From IMG/VR virus record IMGVR_UViG_3300034198_005867, positions 1-28,862 of that record: a DNA stretch of 28,862 nt; one strand, written 5' to 3'. Positions 10,443 to 27,319 of the stretch are shown piece after piece (the first letter of the stretch is position 1; each line of letters begins with the position of its first letter). Below the pieces are notes generated by a model, which did no database searches, was not told the origin of the DNA, and saw only the letters and a program-made list of their open reading frames with translations. The DNA is from a virus. Position numbers and translations under genes: made by a program.

Positions 10443-10448
10443 TATTTA
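10443..10448 (-). promoter_or_regulatory. possible T4-type late promoter for the repeat protein
   Basis: The minus strand reads CCTAAATAC, keeping the TAAATA core of T4 late promoters. It is about 85 bases upstream of the 315-residue gene. A short hairpin (ACCACA / TGTGGT, 10416-10432) lies in the leader between them. Confidence 0.35.
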
Positions 10449-10470
10449 GGATGTATGATGAATATCCAGC

Positions 10471-10499
10471 TTGAATACATCATGGTCTCACACTATCAT
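10471..10499 (+). promoter_or_regulatory. possible sigma70 promoter for the clamp-loader-like cluster
   Basis: TTGAAT (10471-10476), 17 bases and TATCAT (10494-10499) form a moderate promoter 28 bases before the ATG at 10527. Confidence 0.4.
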
Positions 10500-10526
10500 A
10501 TCATACTAAACAGGAATCGTGCACAC

Positions 10527-11736: not shown

Positions 11737-11788
11737 ACATTGACTGTGCGTCACATTCAGTTAAACTCACAAACACAAGGTTAATCCC

Positions 11789-12064: not shown

Positions 12065-12071
12065 TACACTC

Positions 12072-12668: not shown

Positions 12669-12711
12669 TTGTTGTTAAAGTGTACACATAAACAAATCAC
12701 AGGATTCCATC

Positions 12712-13161: not shown

Positions 13162-13610
13162 GATCCGGAAGTTCTCTGCTTGCATTACACAATGCACTGG
13201 GCCAGGCCATACACAAACATTTACCAGATATCACATATATGAATCGTGACTGGGATGCATGGCGAAAAATGGATGCACACGCACAAGGTGTGGCTCTCAA
13301 AACTAACTGTGTGCCACAAACACTTCAAACTCGCCGTCCTTGCGAGGATGAGGTACAAGTGCACATGTTTTGTCAAACTTGGGGCAGCACTGCGCTAGGG
13401 TATGGGGGCATGGGCGGTGCTGCTGTGACCACTGCATACACTGTGATTGTGTATGATTCAGACTGTTATTGTGTGTATTTTGGTAAAGGTGATCTGGCAT
13501 ACCAGATCAAATATAGTCAGTTGAGCACAGAAGGTAAGTTGACGTTCAAGCAGGACATACAGTCACAAAACATGGCATCCAAACAAAATGCCCACATCAA
13601 ATACGTTTAA
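13158..13610 (+). CDS. 150-residue unknown protein
   Basis: The protein begins MRSGSSLLALHNALGQAIHK and is coupled to the upstream gene through an ATGA overlap. It has a Trp-rich segment (MNRDWDAWRKMDAHAQG), a Gly-rich turn (GYGGMGGAAVTTAYTVIVYD) and several Cys, including DCYCVYFG. The layout suggests a small alpha/beta domain. Its stop is only 3 bases from the end of the convergent minus-strand gene. Function unknown. Confidence 0.6.
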   Translation: MRSGSSLLALHNALGQAIHKHLPDITYMNRDWDAWRKMDAHAQGVALKTNCVPQTLQTRRPCEDEVQVHMFCQTWGSTALGYGGMGGAAVTTAYTVIVYDSDCYCVYFGKGDLAYQIKYSQLSTEGKLTFKQDIQSQNMASKQNAHIKYV

Positions 13611-13613
13611 GGA

Positions 13614-14006
13614 TCAATGTGTGGGTGTACCTTTAACCAACTGCACAGTTCTTTTTTTACTGCGCTTGTTGATGAGTGTGTCCAGGCTGGGCATGGGTCC
13701 ATATACTAGCTGAACTTCCTTCTGACTGAATGATTTGAGGTATACGCTATATGGTTTGAACCTGGCTCCCATGAACACATTGATGGGGATCTGTCTGTTG
13801 CTGCCCCACCAATATAATTCCCCACAACTCATGAACTCCACCTTTTGCTCAGGGCTCCATGAGTGCTCTATCACATACATGTGCACAAAGTTTTGATCAC
13901 TGTTTTGTACAATACCCACATAATCTCTGGCCAGATACTTGATGTGTGTGAGAAAGGGCCATCTGGCCAAGCTAGGTGTGGGTGTGTTTGTCATGATTAT
14001 TAACAT
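13614..14006 (-). CDS. 130-residue unknown protein on the opposite strand
   Basis: The protein begins MLIIMTNTPTPSLARWPFLT and has AAGGAG 8 bases before ATG 14006, so the longer start is right. It is aromatic and basic, with WWGSNRQIPINVF in the middle and a Lys/Arg-rich C-terminus (INKRSKKRTVQLVKG). It is the only minus-strand gene between 10360 and 17322 and runs head-on into the 150-residue gene. It is divergent from the BppU-like gene, and the 46 bases between them hold late-promoter-like TTAAATA. Function unknown. Confidence 0.65.
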   Translation of the reverse strand: MLIIMTNTPTPSLARWPFLTHIKYLARDYVGIVQNSDQNFVHMYVIEHSWSPEQKVEFMSCGELYWWGSNRQIPINVFMGARFKPYSVYLKSFSQKEVQLVYGPMPSLDTLINKRSKKRTVQLVKGTPTH

Positions 14007-14018
14007 ATTTAGATCTCC

Positions 14019-14025
14019 TTAAATA
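14019..14025 (+). promoter_or_regulatory. T4-type late promoter-like element
   Basis: CCTTAAATATG at 14017-14027 keeps the TAAATA core. It is 28 bases upstream of the 272-residue virion-like gene, which fits late expression. On the other strand the same bases overlap the SD region of the 130-residue gene. Confidence 0.4.
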
Positions 14026-14052
14026 TGATATGAGAAATCTTTCGGTGTTACC

Positions 14053-14871
14053 ATGAGTTTGGTCTATCTTTATCACTATGTATTGCCTGTGCAATTGAGT
14101 CAGACAGATCATGGAGCACCCAACCTGAGCAGGCCCATGTATAATTATCAGACCAAACTGTACAAGAACAATCACAACAGGGTGGATTTTGTGATTCGTA
14201 ACAATGACAAAAAACCAGTCAAATTGTTGGATTGTGTGCTACAAGTCACCATACAATTTGTGGAGACAGGACAAACTGTATTACAAAAACAGGCACAGGT
14301 CACCAACGAAATCAAAGGCAGAGCACAATTGTATGTGAGTCCCACTGAATGTGCAGGTTGGCCATTGGGTGGTTACCTGTTCAGTGTGCAAATGAAAAAG
14401 CCTGGTTTCCAGGATGAATTTCTGTTTGTGGATGTAAACAATCATGTGCAAGGCATGTTTGAACTACTGCCTGCACTAGGAGATGAACTGGTGGCTGCTC
14501 AAGAAATTTTGGCCAAAGAGTTTACACCCCAGATTATCAATTGGGACACTCAATATCAAGTGTACAGATCAGGAGCCCTGGCTGCCCGCAACACTGTGGG
14601 TCAACATGCAGGCTTTTACTCTGTGGCTGTGTACACCCAAAACTACACAGGCAAGTTTAGCATACAGGCCAGCTTGCAGAATTTGAGCCCCACAGATGTG
14701 AGTTGGTTCACAGTGCCCATTAACGGTGCTGCGCATTTGCAAATCACACCAGAGTCACCTGCTGTGGTGCCCATCAACTTTGGTATAAATGCTCGCTGGA
14801 TCAGATTCACTTATGACACAGACCTGAATAACAAGGGTGATTTTGTGAAGGTGCTATACAAAATCAGCTGA
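14053..14871 (+). CDS. virion or baseplate-type protein with Ig-like N-terminal domain
   Basis: The 272-residue protein begins MSLVYLYHYVLPVQLSQTDH. Residues 40-115 (NRVDFVIRNNDKKPVKLLDC, then GWPLGGYLFSVQM) resemble the beta-sandwich at the N-terminus of BppU-type baseplate upper proteins, where a RxDFxxxNxD opening is common. The second half (GFYSVAVYTQNYTGKFSIQA) looks like a jelly-roll or carbohydrate-binding sandwich. I infer a tail or baseplate component. The SD is weak. It sits between replication genes, just before the primase, with a late-promoter-like element 28 bases upstream. Confidence 0.6.
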   Translation: MSLVYLYHYVLPVQLSQTDHGAPNLSRPMYNYQTKLYKNNHNRVDFVIRNNDKKPVKLLDCVLQVTIQFVETGQTVLQKQAQVTNEIKGRAQLYVSPTECAGWPLGGYLFSVQMKKPGFQDEFLFVDVNNHVQGMFELLPALGDELVAAQEILAKEFTPQIINWDTQYQVYRSGALAARNTVGQHAGFYSVAVYTQNYTGKFSIQASLQNLSPTDVSWFTVPINGAAHLQITPESPAVVPINFGINARWIRFTYDTDLNNKGDFVKVLYKIS

Positions 14872-14890
14872 ACACATGTTATACTAACAC

Positions 14891-15910
14891 ATGCATGAAT
14901 TACAGCAACTGATTGTGGACCATCTGCCTGCCAAGCGCAAAGTCACAGGCAAAGGATGGATCTGGTTTAATGCACCCTGTTGTGCTCACAGAGGCCATAA
15001 CGCAGACACCAAACAGCGAGGAAATTTATGGTTTGGTACAGATGATACTGTGGGCTACCATTGTTTCAATTGTGGCTGCAAATGGAGATTTTCAGGCCAT
15101 CATGTGAGTGATAGTCTACAAGAGTGGCTCAACTGGTTGGGCGTGGAGCCCAGCACAGTGCAAAAGTTGAAGTTGCACTTGTTGCAAGATCAAGTCACAG
15201 GCACACATAAACCTGAGCAGATGGCCATACCCAGTCATTTGAAAAGACATCAGGTCACACCCATGCCTGAACATGCCCAACCATTTCACACATGGGCACA
15301 ACAGCCAGATGTGCATGCAAAGTTTCTGCAAGCCTGTGCATATGTGCAGGATCGTCAAGCACTCAATTGGGAAAACTATGACTATTATTGGACACCTGAC
15401 ACCACACATCAAATGTGTGACAGAGTGATACTGCCCTTTTATAACCAATCACAGATAGTGGGCTGGTCAGCCAGGCTGTGTGTGCCACAACAAGGGCGGC
15501 AGCCCAAGTATTTCAACTCAGACATACCACCTGGCTATGTGTTCAATCAGGATCAACTCCGAAAGAAACGCAAATGGGTCATGGTGTGTGAAGGCCCTTT
15601 TGATGCTATTGCATGTCAGGGCGTGGCAGCCATGGGCAGCCATTTGAGTGAGCATCAGATCAAGACCATCCTGGACAGTGGACAGCAGCCCATCATATTA
15701 CCTGACAGGCAGATGCAAAACCAGCACATGATTGATCAAGCACTTGCATTTGGTTGGCATGTGAGCTTTCCTGAATGGGATTATCAAATAAAAGATGCAT
15801 CAGATGCTTGTGTTCATTATGGCATGCTATACACAATCACTAGTGCTATTCAGGCAGCCACATCAGATCCACTACTGATTGGCGTTAAACGCAAAATGTT
15901 CAAAGGTTGA
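14891..15910 (+). CDS. 61: T4 gp61-like DNA primase
   Basis: This 339-residue protein has an N-terminal zinc-binding segment: C30-C31, H33/H36, then HCFNCG with C58 and C61. It continues to a TOPRIM catalytic region with MVCEGPFDAIA (E234) and IILPDRQMQ (D272). That is the domain order of T4 gp61 (342 residues) and of DnaG primases, which make RNA primers for the lagging strand. The usual TOPRIM DxD is reduced here to a single Asp (PDRQ), as in some gp61 proteins. An extended -10 (TGTTATACT, 14877-14885) lies only 5 bases before the ATG and no SD is visible. Its stop overlaps the start of the helicase gene (TGATG), so primase and helicase are made together, as fits a primosome. Confidence 0.9.
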   Translation: MHELQQLIVDHLPAKRKVTGKGWIWFNAPCCAHRGHNADTKQRGNLWFGTDDTVGYHCFNCGCKWRFSGHHVSDSLQEWLNWLGVEPSTVQKLKLHLLQDQVTGTHKPEQMAIPSHLKRHQVTPMPEHAQPFHTWAQQPDVHAKFLQACAYVQDRQALNWENYDYYWTPDTTHQMCDRVILPFYNQSQIVGWSARLCVPQQGRQPKYFNSDIPPGYVFNQDQLRKKRKWVMVCEGPFDAIACQGVAAMGSHLSEHQIKTILDSGQQPIILPDRQMQNQHMIDQALAFGWHVSFPEWDYQIKDASDACVHYGMLYTITSAIQAATSDPLLIGVKRKMFKG

Positions 15911-17319
15911 TGGTTCACATGGATATTAAAGATTATGGTGAAGATGTTCAAATGATGTTGGTGAGTGTGCTGTTGAGTGATGAAGAAGTGTTCAGCAGAT
16001 GCGCCAACATTCTGAATGTGAAATACTTTGTGAACAAGCTGAGACCAGCTGTGAGATTCCTGTTGCAATTCACAGAGCAGTACAAGACTCTGCCCACACA
16101 TGTGCAAATGAGAGCACAGTTTGGTATGGAATTTGAAAAGATGGATCGCATGCCTGCTGCACTACAACAGGCATTTCTGGATCAGATTGAGGAATTCTGC
16201 AAGAATAGGGCTTTAGCAGATGCTGTGCTGAGTGCTCCTGATCTGATTGCTAAGGGTGCATATGCAGAAGTGGAGAAGAAGGTCAAAGAAGCCATTCTGG
16301 TGGGATTGAACTCCAATATTGGCATCAGATACTATGATGATCCCAGGGCCAGGCTCATGAAAATCAAGTCATCCAATGGCACAGTGAGCAGCACTTGGAA
16401 AAGTGTGGACAACAAGTTGTATGGCGGACTTAATAGAAAAGAGCTCACAATTTGGTGTGCAGGATCAGGTGGTGGTAAAAGTTTGACCATGCAGAATCAG
16501 GCTGTGAACATGAGCAAGGAAGGCCTGAATGTGGTGTACATCAGCCTGGAGCTTTCCGAAGAAATGATCAGCATGCGACTGGACAGCATGGTGAGCGGTG
16601 TGGCTTCCAAAGACATATTTCAGCGTCTGGATGATGTGGAAATCAAGGTGCTGCTGGCAGGTAAACGAGCAAAAGACTTGCATGTGAAACAGATGCCACA
16701 AGGCACCACCACAAATGATTTACGTGCATACTTGAAGAACTATGAGATTGAGACTGGTCACAAATGTGATGTGCTTGTGGTGGACTACTTGGACCTCATG
16801 TTTCCCAACAACAAAAAAATTGATGTGAGTAACCTGTTTGTCAAGGACAAGTTTATCACAGAAGAGCTGCGTGGGTTGTGTGTGGAGAAAAGCATGGTGG
16901 GTGTTACAGCCAGTCAGTTGGGACGTAGCTCAGTTAATGAAATGGAAATGGATCACAGTCACATTTCTGGTGGTATTAGTAAGATCCAGACAGCAGACAA
17001 TGTGATTGCAATTCTGGCCACACCAGCCATGAAGGAGCGAGGTCAGTATCAGTTCCAGTTTTTGAAGACACGTTCCAGTTCAGGTGTGGGCAGCAAGGTG
17101 GTCATGGGATTTGATGTGGACACGTTGCGCATCTTTGACATGGAAGAAGATAACATGCCTCCAGTAAAAACTGCCACAGACATGATGGCTGATCTGCGTA
17201 GGAAAAACAGCAGCACAGGTGCTGCAAGTGGTCCAGACAGGAAACCGGATCCTGAACTCCAGGATCCGGTTAAAAGTGTGGCCACTCTGAAAGAGTTAAC
17301 CAGCTTGATCAGGCGGTGA
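15910..17319 (+). CDS. 41: T4 gp41-like replicative helicase (DnaB family)
   Basis: The 469-residue protein has the RecA-type helicase core of the DnaB/gp41 family: Walker A AGSGGGKS (K190), the following GLNVVYISLELSEE (motif 1a), Walker B VLVVDYLDLM (D292), GVTASQLGRSS (motif 3) and a QFLKTRSSSGVGS arginine-finger region. T4 gp41 (475 residues) is a hexameric 5'-3' helicase that works with gp61. The N-terminal 150 residues match the helical domain that binds primase. The start at 15910 overlaps the primase stop; ATG 15919 is a good alternative with AAAGG upstream. A perfect hairpin lies in the last codons. It ends 3 bases from the convergent minus-strand gene. Confidence 0.92.
   Translation: MVHMDIKDYGEDVQMMLVSVLLSDEEVFSRCANILNVKYFVNKLRPAVRFLLQFTEQYKTLPTHVQMRAQFGMEFEKMDRMPAALQQAFLDQIEEFCKNRALADAVLSAPDLIAKGAYAEVEKKVKEAILVGLNSNIGIRYYDDPRARLMKIKSSNGTVSSTWKSVDNKLYGGLNRKELTIWCAGSGGGKSLTMQNQAVNMSKEGLNVVYISLELSEEMISMRLDSMVSGVASKDIFQRLDDVEIKVLLAGKRAKDLHVKQMPQGTTTNDLRAYLKNYEIETGHKCDVLVVDYLDLMFPNNKKIDVSNLFVKDKFITEELRGLCVEKSMVGVTASQLGRSSVNEMEMDHSHISGGISKIQTADNVIAILATPAMKERGQYQFQFLKTRSSSGVGSKVVMGFDVDTLRIFDMEEDNMPPVKTATDMMADLRRKNSSTGAASGPDRKPDPELQDPVKSVATLKELTSLIRR
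17243..17271. terminator. perfect hairpin inside the 3' end of the helicase gene
   Basis: AACCGGATCCT (17243-17253) pairs perfectly with AGGATCCGGTT (17261-17271) around a 7-base loop. Both arms are coding sequence for the helicase tail. On the minus strand it follows the stop of the 231-residue gene by about 50 bases and is followed by TTTCC, so it may terminate the convergent transcript. Confidence 0.45.
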
Positions 17320-17322
17320 TCG

Positions 17323-18018
17323 TCAGCCTCGGGGAATATATCTAGGAGTCAACCTATCTGCACTGGCTTGGCGCCGGTTTGTAGGCGGAGCGTACTTTAA
17401 TACCCCTGTAGGAAAAGCATTGATAAAATGCTTAATCACATAAGGTAATACTTCCGCAAAGGACCATCCTTCATTGTATTCACTGCTAGTAAATGGACCT
17501 TTAAAATCAACCACCATCTTATCATGAACGGGATTCCAACGCAAATTAAATTCGAGATTGAAAGTCTTATCTTTGTAAAGATTTGGTATGGTTACTTGAT
17601 ATTTAGATCCTTTTTTTGATAAAGTACCATTATGTGATGCAACTAACTTTTGAGCTGCATCAATTAATTCCTGACTCTCATCTTCCCTGGTTTTATCTTC
17701 CATCACAGGCTCTTGCTTGGCACTCACTCTCTTGAGTGCCATCATGACCTTATGAGTTTCCTTTTCTTCCAGTGCTAGCAGACGCACAAAGGCTTCTGCT
17801 AGTTCTGTCATTTCTGCACGAGTTAGCTTGAGTGCATCGCCGCCACGAATCTTGTTCATGCTGCGAGTGAATGTCTGCAAGTCGTTCACGCCCAGCATTT
17901 CAGCCAGCTGCTTGGCATTCAGACTGCCTTCTAAACCTGTGTGTGGAAGGGGATTCTGAGCCAGCTCTTCCAGTCTGCGTGTCAAGCTTCGCATCTGCTC
18001 TGCCAAATATTCTGCCAT
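17323..18018 (-). CDS. 231-residue probable late protein, unknown
   Basis: The protein begins MAEYLAEQMRSLTRRLEELA and has AAGGAG 7 bases before the ATG, with a perfect TATAAATA late promoter 34 bases further up. The N-terminal half is helical (LQTFTRSMNKIRGGDALKLT, then MTELAEAFVRLLALEEKE), a pattern I have seen in structural proteins of marine T4-like phages. The C-terminal half is beta-rich and more AT-rich in codon use (YQVTIPNLYKDKTFNLEF), which suggests a later-acquired domain. It is divergent from the late cassette beginning at 18113 and probably shares its timing. No firm family assignment. Confidence 0.7.
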   Translation of the reverse strand: MAEYLAEQMRSLTRRLEELAQNPLPHTGLEGSLNAKQLAEMLGVNDLQTFTRSMNKIRGGDALKLTRAEMTELAEAFVRLLALEEKETHKVMMALKRVSAKQEPVMEDKTREDESQELIDAAQKLVASHNGTLSKKGSKYQVTIPNLYKDKTFNLEFNLRWNPVHDKMVVDFKGPFTSSEYNEGWSFAEVLPYVIKHFINAFPTGVLKYAPPTNRRQASADRLTPRYIPRG

Positions 18019-18051
18019 GTGGTATCTCCTTGTGTGTGACTTGATTAAGAG

Positions 18052-18059
18052 TATTTATA
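18052..18059 (-). promoter_or_regulatory. T4-type late promoter (exact consensus)
   Basis: The minus strand reads TATAAATA, the exact T4 late consensus recognised by gp55-type sigma. It drives the 231-residue gene. No -35 is expected for this promoter class. Confidence 0.75.
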
Positions 18060-18087
18060 AGTCTAGTTGTTTTTAAAACGGTTTGGC

Positions 18088-18095
18088 TATAAATA
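18088..18095 (+). promoter_or_regulatory. T4-type late promoter (exact consensus)
   Basis: TATAAATA on the plus strand, 28 bases from its minus-strand partner, drives the six-gene late cassette from 18113 to 22074. The leader before the first ATG would be only about 10-12 bases. Confidence 0.75.
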
Positions 18096-18112
18096 ATGCA
18101 AACTTGATCAGG

Positions 18113-18376
18113 ATGCGTGAGTTGAAGAACGCCAAGAGTATCATTGACGAACTGGGTGATCTGGTTCCCATCAAAAATAAACACACAGTGGTGGAGGCCA
18201 GAGCCACCCATGTGATCAGCAGTGCAATCAATCTGATTGAGACACTTAAAGTGATGTATCCTGAGGCTGAAGCACAAGACCTCACCAAGAGGCTCATGCG
18301 AGCCATCTTGCAAGAAGATCCACAAAAATTTCACAGAAAGCTAACCCAGCTAAGGAAGGGGGATATCAAATCATGA
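18113..18376 (+). CDS. 87-residue helical protein, first gene of the late cassette
   Basis: From ATG 18113 the protein is 87 residues, beginning MRELKNAKSIIDELGDLVPI and ending LTQLRKGDIKS. It looks all-helical with mixed charge. The longer frame from TTG 18083 overlaps the late promoter and is rejected. No normal SD is present; AGG abuts the ATG and the leader is very short. It is coupled by ATGA to the next gene. Late promoter and neighbours suggest a virion or assembly protein. No family recognised. Confidence 0.65.
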   Translation: MRELKNAKSIIDELGDLVPIKNKHTVVEARATHVISSAINLIETLKVMYPEAEAQDLTKRLMRAILQEDPQKFHRKLTQLRKGDIKS

Positions 18377-19158
18377 AACCACAAAATGATGCAGAACTCA
18401 TGAGGCACATAATGAGTCTGTTAGAACAAACAGCAACTATACCATCCTCCACACCAGACCCTCTGGATGAGGACCTGGGCCTGCTGAGAAGAGCTAGCAC
18501 CCGATTAAAGGGTGTGTTCAGTAAGAGGCAACGGGGCATCTCAGATGTATTGAGAGGTGCTGCACCCTTGTTAAAACAGTTTGAGAGATATATGGGTCGT
18601 AAAAATCAAGCTTACGACACTTTGACTTGGCAGACTGTGATCATCTTCATGGCAAGTAATGCAACCACATCCATACCAGTGGGTAAGAATCGCGGTGTAC
18701 CCTTAAACATAACTCAGATTGGGGAAGTGCTTAATGACGCCACCTTCCGCAACGGTGTGATTCAACAGTTGGCTACAGAAAGAGTGCAAGCAGGTTCATT
18801 TAATTCCTGGTTCCCCACAGCCACCACACTGGCATCTAAAAAAACACAGCTAGTGGGCGGACCCAGCCCCACTGCTAGGGGCAAGCGCACTGAAGTGATA
18901 ATGAACAGCTTTATGGAAGCTGTTGTTAGTAAAATGTTTGATATAGTGGACGCTGCTGCGGCACCAGAACCAGTTGCCGCCCCTGGTGGGGGCGCTGGCG
19001 GAGGACCTGGTCCAGGTGGTGGACCTGGTGGAGGACCCGGACCTGGACCTGGACCTGGTGGAGGACCTGGCAGTCAGCCCACCCCTCCACAATTTAGTGC
19101 GAGTGATCTAGCTGCTCTAAGAGATTTGGCTACCAAGTTGAGAGGGACCACACCATGA
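18373..19158 (+). CDS. 261-residue late protein with Gly/Pro linker
   Basis: The protein begins MKPQNDAELMRHIMSLLEQT. Residues 45-195 look helical (GISDVLRGAAPLLKQFERYM, then WQTVIIFMASNATTSIPVGK). From about residue 198 comes an extended Gly/Pro linker of some 40 residues made of GGGPGP-type units, and then a short helical tail (FSASDLAALRDLATKLRGTT). Long flexible linkers are common in virion and ejection proteins. Both ends overlap neighbours by ATGA, so it is translationally coupled to the 87- and 360-residue genes. No catalytic motif is seen and no family is recognised. Confidence 0.7.
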   Translation: MKPQNDAELMRHIMSLLEQTATIPSSTPDPLDEDLGLLRRASTRLKGVFSKRQRGISDVLRGAAPLLKQFERYMGRKNQAYDTLTWQTVIIFMASNATTSIPVGKNRGVPLNITQIGEVLNDATFRNGVIQQLATERVQAGSFNSWFPTATTLASKKTQLVGGPSPTARGKRTEVIMNSFMEAVVSKMFDIVDAAAAPEPVAAPGGGAGGGPGPGGGPGGGPGPGPGPGGGPGSQPTPPQFSASDLAALRDLATKLRGTTP

Positions 19159-20237
19159 ACACAACATCCCAACTCTTATTAGAAGTTAATAATGACCTCA
19201 GCATACCGTTAAACTTTAAGATAGCGTTATGGGAATTTCATAACGAAGTTAAACTTGCCTACACAGATAGCATTAAGGACAACCATAGCAAGCGCACACT
19301 CTTGGAGTTTACTAACTTAGATTATGCTCAAACTAAAGCTGCATTTGAGAGACTGCCCACATTGGATGTGAACAAGTTGCATGTGATCACACAAGTGGTT
19401 AATCCAGAGACAGCAGGTGCCCAAGTTCCCCAGGGCCTATTATCCGCACTAAACAAGTGGCTTACAAACGCTTTGTCGGGTTGGATAGAAAAAAAGCTGC
19501 CATCTTCTAAAAATCCAGCTGGATGGGTAATCAAGTTAAAAGATTACCTGAAAGGCCAGAATCCAGCTCTTGTGCCCAGATATGAGAAGATAGTAAGGAT
19601 TGGTGGCAAAGTTGGATCTTTGGCAATTGTAGCAATAATGGCCATAGGTATAGTTTCAGGTTTTCCATTTGTTGGTCCACTTGTGGGAACAGTGGCACTC
19701 AGTATGTTAAAACTGCTCACTGACATTTTACAAGGTGTGAAAGTGAGTGAAGCTGTTGCAAACGCAGTCAAGAGACTGGCTACTGGTGCAGCCCTAGGCG
19801 GTGTGATTGCTGGTGTGGATGCTGCATGGCCCAGTGTGGCCTCCTGGATATCAGGTAATGCTCAAGCACTGGAAGTGCCTAATGCACCTGAAGCCCCTGG
19901 AGAATTTGGAGCTGTTCCTGTCCCCACCGAGCCTCCCTCCACTGGTCCTGATGCAACTGGCGCATATGAAGAACCGGATGCAACTGGCGCATATGAAGAA
20001 CCACCTACTGGCCGCCCCACCGAAGTCACTACACGGAGAGGTGAAACCCTGGGTAGCATTGCACAAAAGCATGGAGTCACTGTGGCTGACATGCAAGCTG
20101 CAAATACTGGAATTAGAAATCCACATGAAATTGGAAGTGGTATAAAACTTAACATACCAACACAAGTCAGACCAGAAGGAACTAATATATGGAACGGTTT
20201 TGACTTTAACAGATGGGGCAGGCCCCCAGGGAGATAA
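19155..20237 (+). CDS. hydrophobic-segment protein with C-terminal LysM domain
   Basis: This 360-residue protein has three parts. Residues 1-150 are helical. Residues about 153-215 are strongly hydrophobic and Gly-rich (LAIVAIMAIGIVSGFPFVGP, then AALGGVIAGVDAA), enough for one or two membrane segments. After a Pro/Glu-rich linker with two exact DATGAYEEP repeats comes a LysM domain at about 294-336 (RRGETLGSIAQKHGVTVADM onward), a fold that binds N-acetylglucosamine in peptidoglycan. I infer a virion-carried protein that meets the cell wall or membrane during DNA entry. A lysis role is an alternative, but no muralytic domain is visible. It overlaps the upstream gene by ATGA. The first half is more AT-rich than the neighbours. 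Confidence 0.75.
   Translation: MNTTSQLLLEVNNDLSIPLNFKIALWEFHNEVKLAYTDSIKDNHSKRTLLEFTNLDYAQTKAAFERLPTLDVNKLHVITQVVNPETAGAQVPQGLLSALNKWLTNALSGWIEKKLPSSKNPAGWVIKLKDYLKGQNPALVPRYEKIVRIGGKVGSLAIVAIMAIGIVSGFPFVGPLVGTVALSMLKLLTDILQGVKVSEAVANAVKRLATGAALGGVIAGVDAAWPSVASWISGNAQALEVPNAPEAPGEFGAVPVPTEPPSTGPDATGAYEEPDATGAYEEPPTGRPTEVTTRRGETLGSIAQKHGVTVADMQAANTGIRNPHEIGSGIKLNIPTQVRPEGTNIWNGFDFNRWGRPPGR
19950..20003 (+). repeat. two tandem 27-base repeats in the LysM gene
   Basis: Two adjacent 27-base units differ only at the last base. Each encodes DATGAYEEP. They lie in the linker before the LysM domain, a site where unit number can change by slippage without breaking the frame. Confidence 0.9.
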
Positions 20238-20240
20238 CAC

Positions 20241-20882
20241 ATGGCACTTGAAGATACAATCTTAAATGATCCAACTAATCACCAAGCATGGATAAATGCT
20301 ATTGAGGCAGACGTTAATAGTAAGTATGCCACTCTGACTCAGGTGCAAAAGCAGGCCAAGGTTGCAGAAGCTCTGCAAGCTTATCTGGAAGAGGTTTGTC
20401 CCAAAACACTACAGGAACTGCTCACTATATCCAAGAACAGTCCTGCAGATGCTCAAGTGTGGATTAGCATACTGCCACCAGCACGCAAAGCCCAATTTAT
20501 ATCTGAAATTGAGGCTGCCATCAATACACTGGATCCACCTCCTCCTCCCCCACCCACAGAACCTGACATAAGAAATGCTGTGAACATCATGACTAGATTT
20601 ATAAGTAGTGCCTCACCAAACAACAAGGGTGGCAACAAAGGTGCATTTGAAGCATTTTTGCGCAAATATAAAACTCATTCACAACTAAACGAGAACCCCC
20701 CACGGTCTCGTCAAACCTATCTAGAACAAATAATTCAGCTTTTAACTAATAATGAAGCTAAATTTAAGCCTGGAGATTATCACAGACTTCAAACACAATT
20801 GGGCTCACTCATGGTTGCTGAGTCTGTGCAATCCACATACCCAGTTGGCAAAGAAATATTACAGAGTCTAAACTTGAAATGA
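20241..20882 (+). CDS. 213-residue late protein with Pro-rich linker
   Basis: The protein begins MALEDTILNDPTNHQAWINA with GGAG 7 bases before the ATG. Residues 1-95 are helical. A run of seven Pro (DPPPPPPPTEPD) near residue 98 separates it from a second helical half (RNAVNIMTRFISSAS, then YLEQIIQLLTNNEAKF). It starts 3 bases after the LysM gene and ends in an ATGA overlap with the next gene, so the cassette is one transcript. Two helical domains joined by a stiff Pro linker suggest a structural or scaffolding role; no family is recognised. Confidence 0.7.
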   Translation: MALEDTILNDPTNHQAWINAIEADVNSKYATLTQVQKQAKVAEALQAYLEEVCPKTLQELLTISKNSPADAQVWISILPPARKAQFISEIEAAINTLDPPPPPPPTEPDIRNAVNIMTRFISSASPNNKGGNKGAFEAFLRKYKTHSQLNENPPRSRQTYLEQIIQLLTNNEAKFKPGDYHRLQTQLGSLMVAESVQSTYPVGKEILQSLNLK

Positions 20883-21634
20883 ATTTAGATGAGAGCAAAC
20901 TCCTGCCCACTTTGAGGAATATCAACAGATACTCTGCAAGAGATGTGGCAGATTTAGCATTCTGCTATATGTTGGCGTTACACATGTGCAGGCAGGAGTT
21001 TGAAACAGCCCCCTGGGTGAGACTGTATGCAACCACTAGTTTGAGTGTGAATGGTTGGCACACAACCAACCTGAACCGCACAGACTTGTATCAGTTTTTG
21101 ACTGTGTTAATTTCACAAACACCCACCTGGACACACAACCTGCGTAATCCAGATGCTAGCGATTTGCTGTTGAAGCAGATCAGAGTGAATCCACACAGTG
21201 TGGAAAGATTTCTGCACAACTTGCAACAGGTGTCATTTGATCCAGAACTGAGTGGCAGACTGTTATTGCAAATGGAACGTGATCTGAAAATCACCACCAG
21301 CAACTACAAGAGCATGAGACGCATCCTAACAGATTGGCATATGGATCATGTGGACACAGAAGCACAGTGTTTGGTGATGACCAGATTATTGCAAGCACTG
21401 CGAGCCAAAGCCTTGAGAGGTGATGTGATCGCAAGACTGCAATCCCTGGCTAGGGATCGTGATTGGGAAATCCATCACGCATGCGATCCTGAGACTGGTA
21501 AAAACTGCGGCATTACAGCAAACACCACCACTCCCAAAAAGCCCAGCCTGCTAAAGCAATTGGCAGTGGGGGCTGGATTGGGTGTGGGTGCATATTTATT
21601 GGGTAAGGCATTATTCGGAGGAAGTAAAAAATGA
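20879..21634 (+). CDS. 251-residue late protein with C-terminal hydrophobic tail
   Basis: The protein begins MNLDESKLLPTLRNINRYSA. Most of it is helical with many Leu, Asn, Arg and Trp (LLLKQIRVNPHSVERFLHNL and similar). The last 30 residues hold a Gly-rich hydrophobic segment (LAVGAGLGVGAYLLGKALFG) and end GGSKK, like a C-terminal membrane anchor. A Cys pair (CDPETGKNC) precedes the tail. It overlaps both neighbours by ATGA. Together with the LysM/hydrophobic protein it makes this cassette unusually membrane-directed for a late operon. No family recognised. Confidence 0.7.
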   Translation: MNLDESKLLPTLRNINRYSARDVADLAFCYMLALHMCRQEFETAPWVRLYATTSLSVNGWHTTNLNRTDLYQFLTVLISQTPTWTHNLRNPDASDLLLKQIRVNPHSVERFLHNLQQVSFDPELSGRLLLQMERDLKITTSNYKSMRRILTDWHMDHVDTEAQCLVMTRLLQALRAKALRGDVIARLQSLARDRDWEIHHACDPETGKNCGITANTTTPKKPSLLKQLAVGAGLGVGAYLLGKALFGGSKK

Positions 21635-22074
21635 AGATATCAGAACTACAAGAGGCCATCAAGGGCTGGAAACATGCAGGCAGAGACATAACCCGCATGC
21701 GTGCAGACAAGGCGGCTGCTCAACACACCGCCAAGCTGGTGAAACTAAACAAGGATGATGCAGAAAGCCAGATGCACGATGCCACCACTACCTACCCCAC
21801 AGAAGAAAAGGCTAGAGAATACCATTCTCGGATAGTCAAACTCAATCCCACCCGTAATATCCGTCACAACTTGTATGTGGACGGAAAACTGGTGGGCGTT
21901 TTGGACAAGGACAACCTGCTGGAATTCTCCAGTGGTGGCGGAACCAGTTCCGGTGCTGTGGCCAGCACAGTGAATCCATTTGGTATTGTGATGCGCAGAC
22001 CCAGTTTGTTTGGTTATGTGACTCCCGCAAAAACTAATGCGAAACCAAAGAAAAAACACTCACGTCATAAATAG
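21631..22074 (+). CDS. 147-residue basic late protein
   Basis: The protein begins MKISELQEAIKGWKHAGRDI with GGAGG 9 bases before the ATG. It is basic throughout and ends KPKKKHSRHK. The middle (NLYVDGKLVGVLDKDNLLEF) looks like a small beta hairpin, then a Ser/Gly-rich linker. Basic small virion proteins often pack with DNA or line the capsid, but this is inference. Its TAG stop overlaps a late-promoter element (CATAAATA) for the next gene. It is the last gene of the coupled cassette. Confidence 0.7.
   Translation: MKISELQEAIKGWKHAGRDITRMRADKAAAQHTAKLVKLNKDDAESQMHDATTTYPTEEKAREYHSRIVKLNPTRNIRHNLYVDGKLVGVLDKDNLLEFSSGGGTSSGAVASTVNPFGIVMRRPSLFGYVTPAKTNAKPKKKHSRHK
22066..22073 (+). promoter_or_regulatory. 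T4-type late promoter for the 229-residue gene
   Basis: CATAAATA, one base off TATAAATA, lies 39 bases before the ATG of the 229-residue gene and overlaps the stop of the preceding gene. With the terminator at 22824 it makes that gene a separate transcription unit. Confidence 0.6.
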
Positions 22075-22112
22075 TTTTGCAATCATGCACTCTTTTTTAG
22101 GAGACAAATACT

Positions 22113-22802
22113 ATGGCCTACGGTCAAACCGACGTCAATGCAGGAGCTCGCGGTGGCGAATTCCTCACCGGCAATCTGAACTACTTCACAATCAAGACAG
22201 TTGTTCCTGCCTACCCCACCAACGTGAAGACACCACTTGCTCAGGCACTCAAGGCCCGTAACTGGACCAGCCTGGCAGCCAGCCGCACAATCGTAGTTGT
22301 GGATGGTAATGGCGCAACAGTCACTTATGACACTGATGCAGAATACACAAGCGCATACAACAAGCAGCAGAATCTGAACACTGTGGTTGCTGTGTTCGCC
22401 ACTCGTGCTAACCCAGTTGTTGTGAACGTGAGTGCTGCTCTTAGTGCAGATCCTAGCGCAGCCAACTCTGCTTTCGCAAGCGGCGGCGTGGCCGACGATG
22501 AGTTCGGTGCCACATACAACAGTGCTAACACAGCCATCTACACCATCAGCATGGTTATTGAAAAGGCCGGCAGCTGGTTGGTGAGCGGCGTGGGTGCAGG
22601 CACAAATGACGCTGGTTATCAGCTGTTGAACGTTATGAACGGCGTGCCTGTTCTGAACACCACAGCCACAACTCCAGCTGGTCCTCAGGATGCATCAGGT
22701 ATTGCTATAACTGTGGCAACTAGTGCATTTGTTGTGGACGGCGCAAGTGCCGACAACAACGTGGTGGCCAAGTTCACAGACAGCCTGCCTTCTGTAGCTT
22801 AA
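22113..22802 (+). CDS. probable abundant virion protein
   Basis: The 229-residue protein begins MAYGQTDVNAGARGGEFLTG, then NLNYFTIKTVV. It is rich in Ala, Val, Thr, Asn and Gly, has no Cys, and reads as mostly beta strands with Ala-rich loops. It has the best expression signals of the late region: its own late promoter, a strong AGGAG SD at 9 bases, GC-rich codons unlike the AT-rich genes around it, and a perfect terminator right after it. That points to a protein made in many copies, such as a tail tube or decoration protein. I recall a similar GEFLTGNLNYFT start in marine T4-like phage proteins of unknown role. Confidence 0.7.
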   Translation: MAYGQTDVNAGARGGEFLTGNLNYFTIKTVVPAYPTNVKTPLAQALKARNWTSLAASRTIVVVDGNGATVTYDTDAEYTSAYNKQQNLNTVVAVFATRANPVVVNVSAALSADPSAANSAFASGGVADDEFGATYNSANTAIYTISMVIEKAGSWLVSGVGAGTNDAGYQLLNVMNGVPVLNTTATTPAGPQDASGIAITVATSAFVVDGASADNNVVAKFTDSLPSVA

Positions 22803-22823: not shown

Positions 22824-22851
22824 ACAAAAGGCGCAGCAATGCGCCTTTTGT
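22824..22851 (+). terminator. strong intrinsic terminator
   Basis: A perfect 12-base stem (ACAAAAGGCGCA / TGCGCCTTTTGT) with a GCAA tetraloop ends the 229-residue gene. The A and T tracts make it work in both directions. Confidence 0.9.
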
Positions 22852-22871
22852 CATCTGTGACCAAATTGACC

Positions 22872-22877
22872 TAAATA
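22872..22877 (+). promoter_or_regulatory. T4-type late promoter-like element
   Basis: CTAAATATGATC at 22871-22882 carries the TAAATA core right after the terminator and ends where the ATG at 22883 begins, so the transcript may be leaderless. Confidence 0.45.
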
Positions 22878-22882
22878 TGATC

Positions 22883-23059
22883 ATGAAACTGGAACAAATA
22901 CCTGTGGGCACACACAGAATCCAATTTGTGCGCAAAAAGGGTCTGTTGCGTAGAGTGGTCACAAAACACCATGCGCACACACCTGTTATAAACCAACCCA
23001 TGTTCCCTATTGAGAGACCTTCCCATGAACACAAAAGAGCTAGCTCAGAAGACAGCTGA
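22883..23059 (+). CDS. 58-residue basic protein, possibly leaderless
   Basis: From ATG 22883 the protein reads MKLEQIPVGTHRIQFVRKKG and continues with LLRRVVTKHHAH. It is strongly basic with many His and Arg. No SD is present, and a late-promoter core lies 5 bases upstream; ATG 22877 lies inside that core. The end overlaps the next gene by 35 bases in another frame. No family recognised. Confidence is moderate because it is short. Confidence 0.5.
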   Translation: MKLEQIPVGTHRIQFVRKKGLLRRVVTKHHAHTPVINQPMFPIERPSHEHKRASSEDS

Positions 23060-23888
23060 CCTCACAGACAAGAGTGAAGCTGAAATTCAAGATCTCATGG
23101 ATCTCATGAATGCAGATCAAGTGATAAACCTGACTGCGGCTGTGGCAGATGAAGATTCAGATGCCATAGATGAAATATTGTCAGATGTGAGTGCTGATGC
23201 AGATTGGGACAATTCTGAAGAACCAGAAGATGTTCAGGAAATCAAAGCAAAGATTAAAAGTTTAGGTCGCAAATTGATCAAGAATGATCAAGAACTAACT
23301 GATCTTTGGCCTCTGATTGGTAAACTGGATGAAGATGATTGGCGACTGGTTTGGCCCAGCCTGGATTCTGAGCTCATGAGCCAATTGTATGCAGAAGCCA
23401 CAGACAAAGAAAAATCAGACATAAGCGGATCTGATGCCACCATGTTGCATGATTATGCTCAGTCATACATTAAAGAAAGTGTGGTCATGTATGAGAACAC
23501 CATGTGGCAAGTGCAAATTCCACAAGCCCCTGACAACTTGGTGGGCATCCGCAATCAAGATCACATGATCTTGGTGCCTCGCAGACATTTGCAATCCCTA
23601 CAAGAGCATGTGATGGGCATGACTCACATGCCCAGCTTGGTGAGGATCAAACAGTTAGCAGGAGTGCCTGATACACATGAAAAAGCAAGCACCATGCACA
23701 TGCTAGCCAATATGAACTCCAAGGTTCAACCTGAAACTGCCTGGTTACAAGAGTTACGCATGCACATGGCAGAAATTGAAAAATTACAACATGAACCTGT
23801 GACAGCAGACACTCAGGAAGAAATTCAGTTGCATGTTAAAGCACTGGGCCGTAAAGCACAAAAAGCTGCTGGTAACATGAAGACATAA
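23025..23888 (+). CDS. 287-residue acidic protein, probable head or assembly protein
   Basis: From ATG 23025 the protein begins MNTKELAQKTADLTDKSEAE. Residues 20-75 are very acidic (ADEDSDAIDEILSDVSADAD). The remainder is helical with a Trp-rich middle (LWPLIGKLDEDDWRLVWPSL). The acidic N-terminus and helical body resemble scaffold or prohead-core proteins, but I cannot tie it to gp22 or another named protein. The TTG at 23010 gives a longer frame and is less likely. No strong SD is present; coupling to the overlapping 58-residue gene is possible. The next gene starts 2 bases after its stop. Confidence 0.6.
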   Translation: MNTKELAQKTADLTDKSEAEIQDLMDLMNADQVINLTAAVADEDSDAIDEILSDVSADADWDNSEEPEDVQEIKAKIKSLGRKLIKNDQELTDLWPLIGKLDEDDWRLVWPSLDSELMSQLYAEATDKEKSDISGSDATMLHDYAQSYIKESVVMYENTMWQVQIPQAPDNLVGIRNQDHMILVPRRHLQSLQEHVMGMTHMPSLVRIKQLAGVPDTHEKASTMHMLANMNSKVQPETAWLQELRMHMAEIEKLQHEPVTADTQEEIQLHVKALGRKAQKAAGNMKT

Positions 23889-23890
23889 TC

Positions 23891-24118
23891 ATGAAAATAT
23901 TATATTTGAATTCGGGATTTCAACTGCTGATCAGCAATGAACAATCTGAACTACTGGACAAGTTTCAATCTGGTCAACCCATTCTGAAAAAGCAGCTTAC
24001 AGAAAGAGAACAATATTTGGCAACCGAATTGGTACATAAAGGAGCATTGACACGGTGCACTGTACAGAATAAGCTAGCTTATTGTAAACCTGACCCTGAA
24101 CAAGTGTGGAGGATTTAA
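23891..24118 (+). CDS. 75-residue unknown protein
   Basis: The protein begins MKILYLNSGFQLLISNEQSE and looks like a short beta hairpin followed by helices (LTEREQYLATELVHKGALTR). It begins 2 bases after the upstream stop and has no clear SD of its own, so it depends on coupling. It ends just before the GGAGG SD of the next gene. No family recognised. Confidence 0.6.
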   Translation: MKILYLNSGFQLLISNEQSELLDKFQSGQPILKKQLTEREQYLATELVHKGALTRCTVQNKLAYCKPDPEQVWRI

Positions 24119-24119
24119 T

Positions 24120-24785
24120 ATGGTTGTTAACGAAACAGACAGACTGGCCATGGCACATCTAATTGACATCATGAACGGGAAAATTACACCAGCCCCTCGT
24201 CAGCCGTTGGCAGCCCACACACATGAAATGCCTGTACAATTGGGTGGTGCTGGTCAAGTCACAAACCAAGACATTCAGGCCATGGCCAGTGTGTTGCAAA
24301 AGTTCAATCAAGCCGTGGAACAGACACATGTGCAACTGCTGTATGAAAGCAAGCATGATGCACATGTGGCAGAAGCGTTGGTTACTGAAAAACAAAATGA
24401 TTCGGTAAAAATTGGCCACTATAAGATTGCAGTACACATGGACGAACAACGTGTGGCAGGCAAGCAATATTATGATGTGGTGCATGGTGTAACTGGTGAA
24501 AAACTAGCATCTGAACTCAGCTTGTATGAAGCTGCACATGGATTGGTCAAGTTGCTGAATTCCGGCAAGTATGTTAACCATACCCAAGTGAGAGATCTAC
24601 TTGAAGCAGAAGCTGCATACACCAGTCATCGTATTGATGCCATTCATTACCATAAATTGGTAAAACGTGCAAGTACTCAAATGCAGTTGAGCAAGGTGGA
24701 CGTTTTTGAGGCACGTAAAGCAGCCAGCATGGATAAAGCTGCACATGCCAAAATTAAGGTCAAAAGGATTTATGCTAAACTATGA
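24120..24785 (+). CDS. 221-residue conserved phage protein, unknown
   Basis: The protein begins MVVNETDRLAMAHLIDIMNG with GGAGG 7 bases before the ATG. The N-terminal 100 residues include a His/Pro-rich linker and a helix. The C-terminal 120 residues (KIGHYKIAVHMDEQRVAGKQ, YYDVVHGVTGEKLASELSLY, EAAHGLVKLLNSGK) form a compact alpha/beta pattern I recall from marine T4-like phages, ending in a basic KIKVKRIYAKL. No function is known. Its stop overlaps the start of the IscA-like gene by ATGA. Confidence 0.65.
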   Translation: MVVNETDRLAMAHLIDIMNGKITPAPRQPLAAHTHEMPVQLGGAGQVTNQDIQAMASVLQKFNQAVEQTHVQLLYESKHDAHVAEALVTEKQNDSVKIGHYKIAVHMDEQRVAGKQYYDVVHGVTGEKLASELSLYEAAHGLVKLLNSGKYVNHTQVRDLLEAEAAYTSHRIDAIHYHKLVKRASTQMQLSKVDVFEARKAASMDKAAHAKIKVKRIYAKL

Positions 24786-25084
24786 TGATTACTCCTCAAG
24801 CACAATTAAAGATTTCACTAATTTGTGACCCTACTGAATGGTTCAGAGTTAGTGTGCGTGCAGGAGGTTGTTCTGGTTTTGAACATGCATTCAGTGTGGT
24901 ATCACAAATTGATACAAAGCATGATATCATGGTGGGTCAAGTTTGTATGGATTTGTCCAGCGCAGAAATATTACAAAATGCAGTGCTGGATTACCGCGTG
25001 GATTTGAGCGGTAGTCAATTTAAATTGACTGTGCCCGAAGCCACAAGTGCATGCGGCTGTGGCCAAAGCTTCAGTTTGTTCTGA
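24782..25084 (+). CDS. IscA/HesB-type Fe-S cluster carrier
   Basis: This 100-residue protein has the A-type carrier signature: RAGGCSGF (C30) and near the end ACGCGQSF (C91 and C93). Those three Cys bind an iron-sulfur cluster that the protein passes to client enzymes. The length is normal for the family. HesB/IscA-like genes are known in several cyanophages and other phages; the benefit may be maturing phage or host Fe-S enzymes. It sits in the middle of a late, structural-looking cluster and starts through an ATGA overlap, so it would be made late. The final FSLF tail is typical. Confidence 0.9.
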   Translation: MMITPQAQLKISLICDPTEWFRVSVRAGGCSGFEHAFSVVSQIDTKHDIMVGQVCMDLSSAEILQNAVLDYRVDLSGSQFKLTVPEATSACGCGQSFSLF

Positions 25085-25095
25085 CACATTTGGGC

Positions 25096-25101
25096 TAAAT
25101 A
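25096..25101 (+). promoter_or_regulatory. T4-type late promoter-like element
   Basis: GGCTAAATAAC at 25093-25103 holds the TAAATA core, about 30 bases before the ATG of the 581-residue gene. Confidence 0.45.
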
Positions 25102-25132
25102 ACTCAAACCACGAGTTTAGAAAAGTTTGGCC

Positions 25133-26878
25133 ATGTTTGTAGATCAACTCTCTGCTTCCCCTCACCACAGACTGAATCAAATCTTGCATACTCTCAAGCA
25201 TGTGCATGCTTGTGAATTACCTGTGCATGATGTTCACAAGCTTTCAGAATGGGCATCAGATGCCATATCTGAAAAACAACAAATTGTGAAAGATCAAGAT
25301 TTCAATTCCTACATGCAGCAACCTGCATATGTGAAGGCCAATTTGATCCTAGAAGCTGTGAAAATGCTCACAGAGGTTGCACCCAGACGTCGCAAGCGTG
25401 TGAAAGAACATAAGGAAACAAGTATGCCCACTCTGAATGAAGCAAAGGGTTCCAAACCAGACTTCCTGGATCTGGACAAAGATGGTGATCGCAAGGAATC
25501 CATGAAGCAAGCTGCCAAGCAGGCCAAACACAAAGAAGTGGATGAAGCCAAACAGGATCCTGAAGCAGACAGATTGAGAGATGAATGGATGGCCAAAAAG
25601 GCGCCCACATATGGTAACACCAAAGTGGCCAAGGGGGCTAAATTCCACAGACCAGGCTCTGGGCATGTGGGACGTACTGGCAGTGCAAGTGCAGATGCAC
25701 CTGGAATTAAATTGCCCAGAATAAAGGTTAAAGAGAGAGTGCTACAAGAAGATACCAATCTGGACAAAGCACAAACTTTGTTAGCTGCCCAAGATATAAG
25801 TGACCGCTTGCAAAAGATGGCAGAGGACGCAGCCAAGATGGCTGTGGATGATCTGATGCCACTTGTGGACACCATGAAGGATCAATTTGGTATGGAAGCT
25901 GCCACAGCATTCAATAATGTGGTCAAGCAGAACCTGCAAACTGTGCTGGACAGCATTATTGCAGCCAAGGATCAGACAGACAACGCTATCAACACCATGG
26001 AGACAGGTGGCATGCCTGCTGCTCCTTTAGACATTGGCCAACCCTTGCCTCCCATGGGAGCCCCGGCTCCTGCGGCTACAGCAGCTACTCCAGCTGCCCC
26101 TGCTGCTCCTGAACCAGAAGGTGAGATTGATTTCGAAAAAGAATTCGCAGCCATGCCTGCCATGAGTGGCCCCCACGAGGAGCCATTGGGCCGGGCCAAG
26201 AAGGAAGTAGCCGAAGCCACACTTACACCAGCACAACAAGTATTAGCCAAAGGGTTAGCTAAAAAAGAAGCAGAAGATCTGTTAAAAACTCGCAAAATGG
26301 GTAATAAACCAGCAACGGCTAAAGAAATTCAAGATGCTAAACAGATAGCGATGCAAACTGAGGCTGTGGCCAAAGTCAAAGAGAATAAAAGAGCTATTGA
26401 GAAGGATCTCAAGGAACAGCAGCTCAAACAGACTAAAGAGCAAGTGCATGCACTCAAGGAACGCTTTGATCATGTGAAGAAAAGTTATTCAGCTCATGTG
26501 CGCACACTGAGTGAAAACTGGATTCAAAACCAAGGTGATCTGCAATCTGCCGTGTTGCAAAACCACATGCATGAGATCAGAACACAAATTCAGGAACTAG
26601 TGGAAACACACAAGCAGCTCAAAGCAGAACTCCTAGAAGCTGCCAGATTTCAAGCGCAAACACATCGCAAGGTGGCCCAACTGGACCAACAACTAACAAG
26701 TGAACCTTGGGGTGTTAGAGGTCAATACACATATGGCGAACGTTTCCGTAAGTTTTTTGAAAGTGCAGTGTCCCGTGACACATGGCTCAGATACAATGAA
26801 GATCATATCAAAGTCATGGAAACAATTGACCCTGAGCATGTTAAGGCAGTGAAAAACAGATTACTAGATCAAATCTGA
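25133..26878 (+). CDS. long coiled-coil structural protein with Ca-binding-like motif
   Basis: From ATG 25133 the protein has 581 residues. Residues 113-119 read DLDKDGD, a Dx[DN]xDG calcium-loop motif inside KPDFLDLDKDGDRKES, a signature I recall from marine T4-like virion proteins. Residues about 213-295 form a helical module (QTLLAAQDISDRLQKMAEDA onward), then an Ala/Pro linker to about 335. Residues 360-520 are charged coiled coil and the end is globular (WGVRGQYTYGERFRKFFESA). Codons in 26220-26400 are AT-rich, unlike both sides. The size and layout suggest a prohead core, scaffold or neck protein; I cannot choose. A late-type element precedes it and a perfect terminator follows. Confidence 0.7.
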   Translation: MFVDQLSASPHHRLNQILHTLKHVHACELPVHDVHKLSEWASDAISEKQQIVKDQDFNSYMQQPAYVKANLILEAVKMLTEVAPRRRKRVKEHKETSMPTLNEAKGSKPDFLDLDKDGDRKESMKQAAKQAKHKEVDEAKQDPEADRLRDEWMAKKAPTYGNTKVAKGAKFHRPGSGHVGRTGSASADAPGIKLPRIKVKERVLQEDTNLDKAQTLLAAQDISDRLQKMAEDAAKMAVDDLMPLVDTMKDQFGMEAATAFNNVVKQNLQTVLDSIIAAKDQTDNAINTMETGGMPAAPLDIGQPLPPMGAPAPAATAATPAAPAAPEPEGEIDFEKEFAAMPAMSGPHEEPLGRAKKEVAEATLTPAQQVLAKGLAKKEAEDLLKTRKMGNKPATAKEIQDAKQIAMQTEAVAKVKENKRAIEKDLKEQQLKQTKEQVHALKERFDHVKKSYSAHVRTLSENWIQNQGDLQSAVLQNHMHEIRTQIQELVETHKQLKAELLEAARFQAQTHRKVAQLDQQLTSEPWGVRGQYTYGERFRKFFESAVSRDTWLRYNEDHIKVMETIDPEHVKAVKNRLLDQI

Positions 26879-26971: not shown

Positions 26972-27319
26972 ATGAGAGCACATGAATTCCTTTGCGAACA
27001 ATCACACGAAGACCTTGCACGCGATGCACTGATCACTTTGATCACCACTCAACATGCCATGGGGATACCCACCATCAAAACATCCCAGCTACTTAAAAGT
27101 TTGGAAGACAGAAACTTCTTCATGGACCAAGACTGGGTTTGGAGTCAGATGCACACCATACCTGTTGTGGATATGCAACAAAGTAAACCTGAGCAGATTG
27201 TGCTCAAATTATCCAGCAGTGAGCCAGAAGCTACACCCCCCAAGCAGCCCACAGAACCCAATAATGCAAAAACTGTGGAAAAGATGGCTAAAAACGCTCT
27301 TGCACAAAGGATCAAGTAA
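26972..27319 (+). CDS. 115-residue unknown late protein, possibly leaderless
   Basis: The protein begins MRAHEFLCEQSHEDLARDAL. Residues 1-80 look like a helical domain with a short beta end (VWSQMHTIPVVDMQQSKPEQ), then a Pro/Thr linker (EATPPKQPTEPNNAKT) and a basic helix (KMAKNALAQRIK). An MRAHEFL-type start is frequent in small proteins of T4-like marine phages, from memory. No SD is seen and the late-promoter core is 7 bases upstream. Its TAA overlaps the ATG of the next gene (TAATG). Function unknown. Confidence 0.65.
   Translation: MRAHEFLCEQSHEDLARDALITLITTQHAMGIPTIKTSQLLKSLEDRNFFMDQDWVWSQMHTIPVVDMQQSKPEQIVLKLSSSEPEATPPKQPTEPNNAKTVEKMAKNALAQRIK

Follow-up and report, generated by a model that had tools for sequence, protein, structure and literature searches.

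A late cassette of a RaK2/PA5oct/Atu_ph07-type jumbo phage combines a constant frame with a block-exchanged slot and may encode head-internal proteins

The internal head proteins of phage T4 (IPI, IPII, IPIII and Alt) form a diverse set with only a capsid targeting sequence in common: propeptides of 10-19 residues target them to the core and are then removed, and beyond this leader the proteins differ widely (PMC3012670, PMC9026906). In phiKZ/SPN3US, phages of a different lineage which we compare by description only, a mass of head-packaged ejection proteins carries propeptides cut by the prohead protease (PMC5694885). In jumbo phage Atu_ph07, the coding sequences (CDS) 31-76 account for 29 proteins found in virions, a figure given for the cluster as a whole (PMC6102473). 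Here we analyze a cassette of six genes, g1 to g6, located at 18113-22074 on the + strand of the 28,862-base IMG/VR record IMGVR_UViG_3300034198_005867 (positions 1-28,862, the whole stretch analyzed, hereafter the window). It is most likely the post-helicase virion-protein locus of a T4-superfamily jumbo phage of the RaK2/PA5oct/Atu_ph07 type. With a probability of about 0.5, we read it as a head-internal protein locus made of a constant frame and an exchangeable slot, similar to the T4 internal proteins without homology to them. The slot contents would probably be proteins packed in the head and delivered with the DNA, a likeness to phiKZ/SPN3US that we propose for the cassette. The layout, a constant frame around a block-exchanged slot, is what is new here.

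The window was aligned at the DNA level with a sister contig (loci L003/L004/L015/L021). The features concerned are the following.

14891-15910: gp61-like primase
15907-17319: gp41-like DnaB helicase
17323..18018, - strand: g0, 231 residues, divergent late gene, C-terminal part exchanged
18052..18095, both strands: divergent T4-type late promoter pair, TATAAATA at 18088-18095 (+) and at 18052 (-), the sole copy per strand in the window
18113..18376, + strand: g1, 87 residues, frame gene, phrog_11854 match
18373..19158, + strand: g2, 261 residues, conserved leader (about 12 codons), helical body and Gly/Pro linker, body exchanged
18411..20867, + strand: exchange block (g2 body, g3 and g4), no DNA alignment to the sister contig
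19155..20237, + strand: g3, 360 residues, helical N-part, hydrophobic hairpin, Pro-rich linker and C-terminal LysM
20241..20882, + strand: g4, 213 residues, Pro-run protein, slot gene
20879..21634, + strand: g5, 251 residues, all-helical frame protein with hydrophobic C-terminal tail
21631..22074, + strand: g6, 147 residues, basic N-domain and capsid N-arm-like C-terminal segment
22113..22802, + strand: g7, 229 residues, next frame gene, outside the region of the preliminary description of this DNA, following g6 in relatives

Identity to the sister contig is 92.5% over 9323-17320 and 88.6% over 17695-18410. No alignment exists over 18411-20867, and beyond it the two contigs are 84% identical over 20868-22432 and 92.7% over 22824-26264. 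The edges of the unaligned block correspond to codon ~13 of g2 and to a point 11 bases before g5. The protein identities are 100% for g1, 31% for g2, 26% for g3, 22% for g4, 85% for g5, 88% for g6 and 62% for g7. In g2, 28 of the first 30 bases are those of the sister and similarity is lost beyond, a combination of conserved leader and diverse body seen for g2 only. The slot (g2 body, g3 and g4) is exchanged as one block within a constant frame formed by g1, the g2 leader, g5, g6 and g7. A second exchanged stretch, 17321-17694, has no DNA match to the sister and corresponds to the C-terminal part of g0, the N-terminal 112 residues of which are 78% identical in the two contigs.

In the relatives L005, L024, L027, L138, L139, L140, Atu_ph07 and Phosso, the slot contents vary or are missing. 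L005, with a g5 of 67% identity, has neither g3 nor g4, its g2 leading directly to g5, and in L139 the slot is devoid of any cargo. The g3 protein of L024/L025 keeps its N-terminus and hydrophobic hairpin, its LysM being replaced by another C-terminal domain (SYSGSFRDAFAAARK...FSWTDP(A/T)TGQIKPFTTNT) for which no Pfam or PHROGs match was obtained. Atu_ph07, Phosso, L027 and L140 harbor in their slot a ligase-like protein with an E-K-x-D-G motif (for Atu_ph07, PF09414 with E = 0.002, below the curated cut-off) and a protein resembling Pol-beta nucleotidyltransferases (NTases) by motif only (GS...GDID); jumbo phages are known to carry RNA-ligase-associated Pol-beta NTases (PMC7824862). In L138, g5 is accompanied by proteins resembling g3 and DUF6267 and by an arm protein of 65 residues, and a second lineage (L071-L074) has a LysM at the locus, in an 839-residue protein after g1. 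The g4 product shares 17-26% identity with the proteins found at the same place in relatives and has no family match in PHROGs, Pfam or NCBIfam. At 11321-12514 of L024, an IS605-type TnpB (PF07282, PF01385) is inserted between g3 and g4.

The exchange or absence of the g2 body, g3 and g4 in relatives is more easily explained by accessory cargo than by an essential conduit. It also bears on a role restricted to head assembly, in which the products would be core or scaffold components and their partners, not ejected, and would vary by co-evolution with other head parts. Such a role is compatible with the conservation of g1, g5 and g6 near other virion genes, with the scaffold-like low-complexity linkers of g2 and with the influence of T4 IPIII on head assembly (PMC9026906). 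We nevertheless consider it unlikely, as it accounts poorly for a block exchange amid otherwise 84-93% identical DNA, for the lack of g3/g4 in L005 and of any cargo in L139, for the enzymes held in the slot of relatives and for a peptidoglycan-binding domain without evident assembly role.

The cassette comes shortly after the primase-helicase pair, which is the site of the virion-protein cluster in RaK2, PA5oct, Munch, Phosso and Atu_ph07-type jumbo phages. A profile match identifies residues 6-84 of g1 as phrog_11854, "virion structural protein" (E = 5.6e-15). In Vibrio 2.275.O, PA5oct, Munch and RaK2 its homologs directly follow the replicative helicase gene, and in Phosso and Atu_ph07 a single small gene intervenes; the alignment of seven of them was too divergent to be used as a scan query. 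In PA5oct, most genes after g1 have been found in virions by electrospray tandem mass spectrometry (MS) (gp258, 257, 254-249 and 247-245), among them gp251 and gp250, which are g7-like in N-terminus and position. The syntenic Atu_ph07 genes are CDS 53-68, inside the virion cluster CDS 31-76 (by our count along the record, which matches the published numbering for gp18 and gp70). The preliminary description had proposed either a virion-internal or ejection complex or a lysis-related unit, and had asked whether gene order is kept in related phages. Virion association is supported, indirectly, by the PA5oct MS-found genes and the Atu_ph07 cluster; the frame genes are syntenic after the helicase and the slot genes are swapped or absent.

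The T4 prohead protease prefers (L/I)xE. Putative LxE sites are present, by sequence, at the N-termini of g2, g3, g5 and g6. Among the MS-found structural proteins of PA5oct, 16 of 57 have the pattern [LIFVM]xE[SANGTDK] between residues 4 and 23, against 1 of 20 tail proteins and 29 of 290 other open reading frames (ORFs) of this phage (indicative p = 6e-4). In the clustered IMG/VR loci, 38 of 101 clusters downstream of g1 display it vs 9 of 78 upstream (indicative p = 5e-5). Looser patterns gave little signal in PA5oct alone.

The small basic g6 protein (net charge +12) belongs by its C-terminus to a family of small proteins whose matches to phrog_17311 range from weak for the window (E = 0.29) to 7.5e-4 for L024 and 2.1e-25 for the Munch member; no g6 relative was detected in the bacterial or archaeal genomes searched. 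For three jumbo-phage major capsid proteins, the segment at their presumed maturation site and beyond it served to build a capsid N-arm profile, with which 10,607 distinct six-frame ORFs were scanned. Leaving aside the capsid proteins themselves and one capsid-like fragment, members of the g6 family ranked first: L140 (E = 1.5e-5), Munch (9.5e-5), L027 (0.004), RaK2 (0.01), Vibrio (0.011), PA5oct gp281, seen in virions (0.042), Atu_ph07 gp53 (0.055) and L005 g6 (0.072). The best E on shuffled ORFs was 1.1, and against composition-matched shuffles the g6 family reached z = 4.6 to 14.4, none of 200 shuffles attaining the real score. The window g6 is at the weak end, and the N-arm argument therefore rests on the g6 family. 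Since the scored segments were picked by a motif derived from the g6 family itself and are rich in Gly/Ser/Ala/Thr, the likeness could possibly result from convergence. In L109 (Phosso, ~182 kb), positions 1402-2082 encode a 226-residue protein similar to residues 60-102 of the major capsid protein (E = 6e-7), a possible capsid-fragment mimic.

The protease-like N-terminal sites and, in the g6 family, the tail that resembles a capsid N-arm support, indirectly, a location inside the head rather than in the tail, and add to the virion-internal part of the preliminary proposal. The products could otherwise belong to the neck, tail or baseplate or decorate the surface; the LysM of g3 would then touch the wall at contraction, and the variability would reflect host-range selection. 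Phage baseplate proteins can carry LysM, g3 weakly matches phrog_46 "baseplate hub" (E = 0.034), the neighboring gene g14 (27319 onwards) matches baseplate-wedge and head-closure families, and RaK2-type phages have unusual fibres and whiskers (PMC6102473). The leader motif, present in 1/20 PA5oct tail proteins vs 16/57 MS-found structural proteins, speaks against this assignment, as do the resemblance of g6 to a capsid arm and not to a tail protein and the lack of tail-family matches of g1-g6 beyond LysM. An exposed tail part with a hydrophobic hairpin would also be unusual. We judge a tail location improbable, on a par with the assembly-only role.

The g5 protein is homologous to the C-terminal domain of the PF19782/DUF6267 proteins of marine T4-like phages, with 103 bits for a profile made of those C-terminal domains from proteins located after g1, and 99.7% hhalign probability over 216 columns. 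It also matches Atu_ph07 gp64 (E = 8e-20). The homology starts at (L/I)xE(S/A), and this glutamate is among just five invariant residues in 18 g5-type sequences. The AlphaFold2 model of g5 is confident and all-helical, with a mean predicted local distance difference test score (pLDDT) of 81.4; the fold has no relative in PDB, and in a viral library the Atu_ph07 protein and three others were matched. A hydrophobic tail covers residues 228-246 (Kyte-Doolittle maximum 1.59). With the relatives found for g1, g5 and g6, the initial view of six unrecognised proteins no longer holds.

In g3, a LysM domain is recognized at residues 292-335 (PF01476, E = 6.1e-10, 39.3 bits vs a curated cut-off of 20.9), C-terminal to a hydrophobic segment at residues 146-188 (Kyte-Doolittle maximum 2.3), as had been described from the bare sequence. 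The LysM family binds peptidoglycan. The other traits then listed, namely the hydrophobic end of g5, the Gly/Pro linker of g2, the Pro run of g4 and the small basic g6, were all found again. These segments could evoke a lysis or lysis-control unit with g3 and g5 as holin- or spanin-like membrane proteins, as LysM is common in endolysins and both proteins contain hydrophobic segments. The PHROGs lysis matches are weak and all pass through LysM, none of the six proteins contains a catalytic domain, and no holin or spanin family was found in PHROGs, Pfam or NCBIfam. Some relatives are entirely without g3/g4 and the neighbors of the cassette are virion genes, and we regard the lysis part of the preliminary proposal as very improbable. 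No T4 neck, tail or lysis protein was found to be homologous to the cassette products, a homology that the preliminary description had named as refuting its proposal. The g3 protein would instead be an exchangeable accessory cargo that could meet membrane and peptidoglycan as the head empties.

Several points weigh against the head-internal interpretation. The MS support comes from syntenic relatives, PA5oct and Atu_ph07, for the latter at the cluster level, and g1 of PA5oct lacks the mark of an MS-found protein. The leader pattern was set after some sequences had been viewed, so its p-values are indicative, and (L/I)xE is short and common, the pattern being also present in 2/15 MS-found enzymes besides the 29/290 other ORFs. 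The window g6 is the weakest member for N-arm likeness (z = 4.6), and the near-identical g6 of the sister gives E = 3.9. The model of g3, built from four sequences only, is unusable (pLDDT 36). A candidate homology between g2 of the window clade and Atu_ph07/Phosso was rejected as unsupported (hhalign probability 0.2%).

From these sequence features we infer the head location, processing and ejection of the products and the roles of g6 and g3. Late in infection, the products would enter the prohead core by means of short N-terminal leaders that end in (L/I/F)xE and would be trimmed by the prohead protease. The g6 protein would dock by its segment similar to the capsid N-arm, and the slot proteins would travel in the head as cargo and exit with the DNA. 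The hydrophobic hairpin of g3 might insert into the inner membrane and its LysM bind peptidoglycan, where g3 may help or guard DNA passage or act on the envelope.

Like the T4 internal head proteins, the cassette would consist of late virion genes with putative short N-terminal leaders and LxE-like sites, with a conserved leader on an exchanged body (g2) and contents diverse among close relatives. Unlike them, its variable part is framed by conserved g1, g5, g6 and g7, it occupies another genome position, and it possesses a LysM, membrane segments and a capsid N-arm-like segment; no homology of g1-g6 to IPI-III or Alt appears among the PHROGs, Pfam and NCBIfam matches. The PF19782/DUF6267 (phrog_455) proteins share with the cassette the place after g1 and a C-terminal domain homologous to g5, but the ligase-like DUF6267 domain is missing from the window, through loss or because it was never present: g5 is a separate protein and g2-g4 occupy the slot. 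The cluster of Atu_ph07, Phosso, PA5oct, RaK2 and Munch has g1, g5 (Atu_ph07 and Phosso), g6-type and g7-type genes in the same post-helicase order; the Atu_ph07/Phosso type contains ligase-like and NTase-like enzymes (with ADP-ribosyltransferase-like arrays further on in Atu_ph07), whereas the window has a LysM/membrane protein and g4. In that array (L006 1485-12593, Atu_ph07 CDS 53-63), about ten tandem paralogous genes directly follow g5 and the largest also ends with a capsid N-arm-like tail. The paralogs (CDS 53-62) begin with M(R/K)WxxL(T/N/I)E and carry a YRG motif reminiscent, by eye, of ADP-ribosyltransferases, enzymes that myophages commonly package in the virion (PMC9503650). The array looks like a bank of head-packaged effectors.

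The six ORFs are coupled as first described, four of the five junctions being 4-base ATGA overlaps and g3/g4 being separated by a 3-base gap. The late promoter announced upstream is present, once on the + strand 25 bases 5' of the g1 ATG, with a divergent minus-strand partner (0.18 copies expected per strand under a Markov-1 model); both TATAAATA elements are retained in the sister contig. Because they form a divergent pair in which each is the sole copy on its strand, the minus-strand gene g0 probably belongs to the same late unit. Among 45 loci, TATAAATA or TATAAAT occurs within 150 bases upstream of g1 in 8 only, mostly the nearest relatives. The g1 start at 18113 is backed by the L005 homolog, which has an identical start residue.

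The proteins of the window group with RaK2/PA5oct/Atu_ph07-type jumbo myophages. For the 14053-14871 protein, all isolated-phage matches are Pseudomonas, Klebsiella, Salmonella, Agrobacterium and Sinorhizobium phages of this kind; a megablast search of the window against isolated phages gave no DNA match, and Rfam and ARAGORN scans of it detected nothing. Elsewhere, the window encodes an HNH homing-type endonuclease (5303-6073, - strand, phrog_12324, E = 2.9e-35) and, within the late virion-gene run, an A-type iron-sulphur carrier (24782-25084, + strand, PF01521, E = 2.4e-9) which relatives carry too. Two virion-type proteins vary in length between relatives, at 25127-26878 (+ strand; 583, 610 and 790 residues) and at 27319-28860 (+ strand, with internal repeats).

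More generally, and tentatively, T4-superfamily jumbo phages may possess a dedicated, block-exchangeable slot for injected cargo, which could be either envelope-binding membrane proteins (with LysM or another C-terminal domain) or RNA-repair-like enzymes, and one frame protein would dock on shell or core by mimicry of the capsid N-arm; we hold this wider model as doubtful but possible. If the head-internal reading is true, phrog_11854, phrog_17311 and the DUF6267 C-terminal domain, all of unknown or vague function, would be tied to one locus, and the leader and capsid-arm-like segment would offer a test of cargo addressing into jumbo-phage heads. In many uncultured large phages, the region between g2 and g5 would then be a place to seek injected proteins for host takeover or counter-defence.

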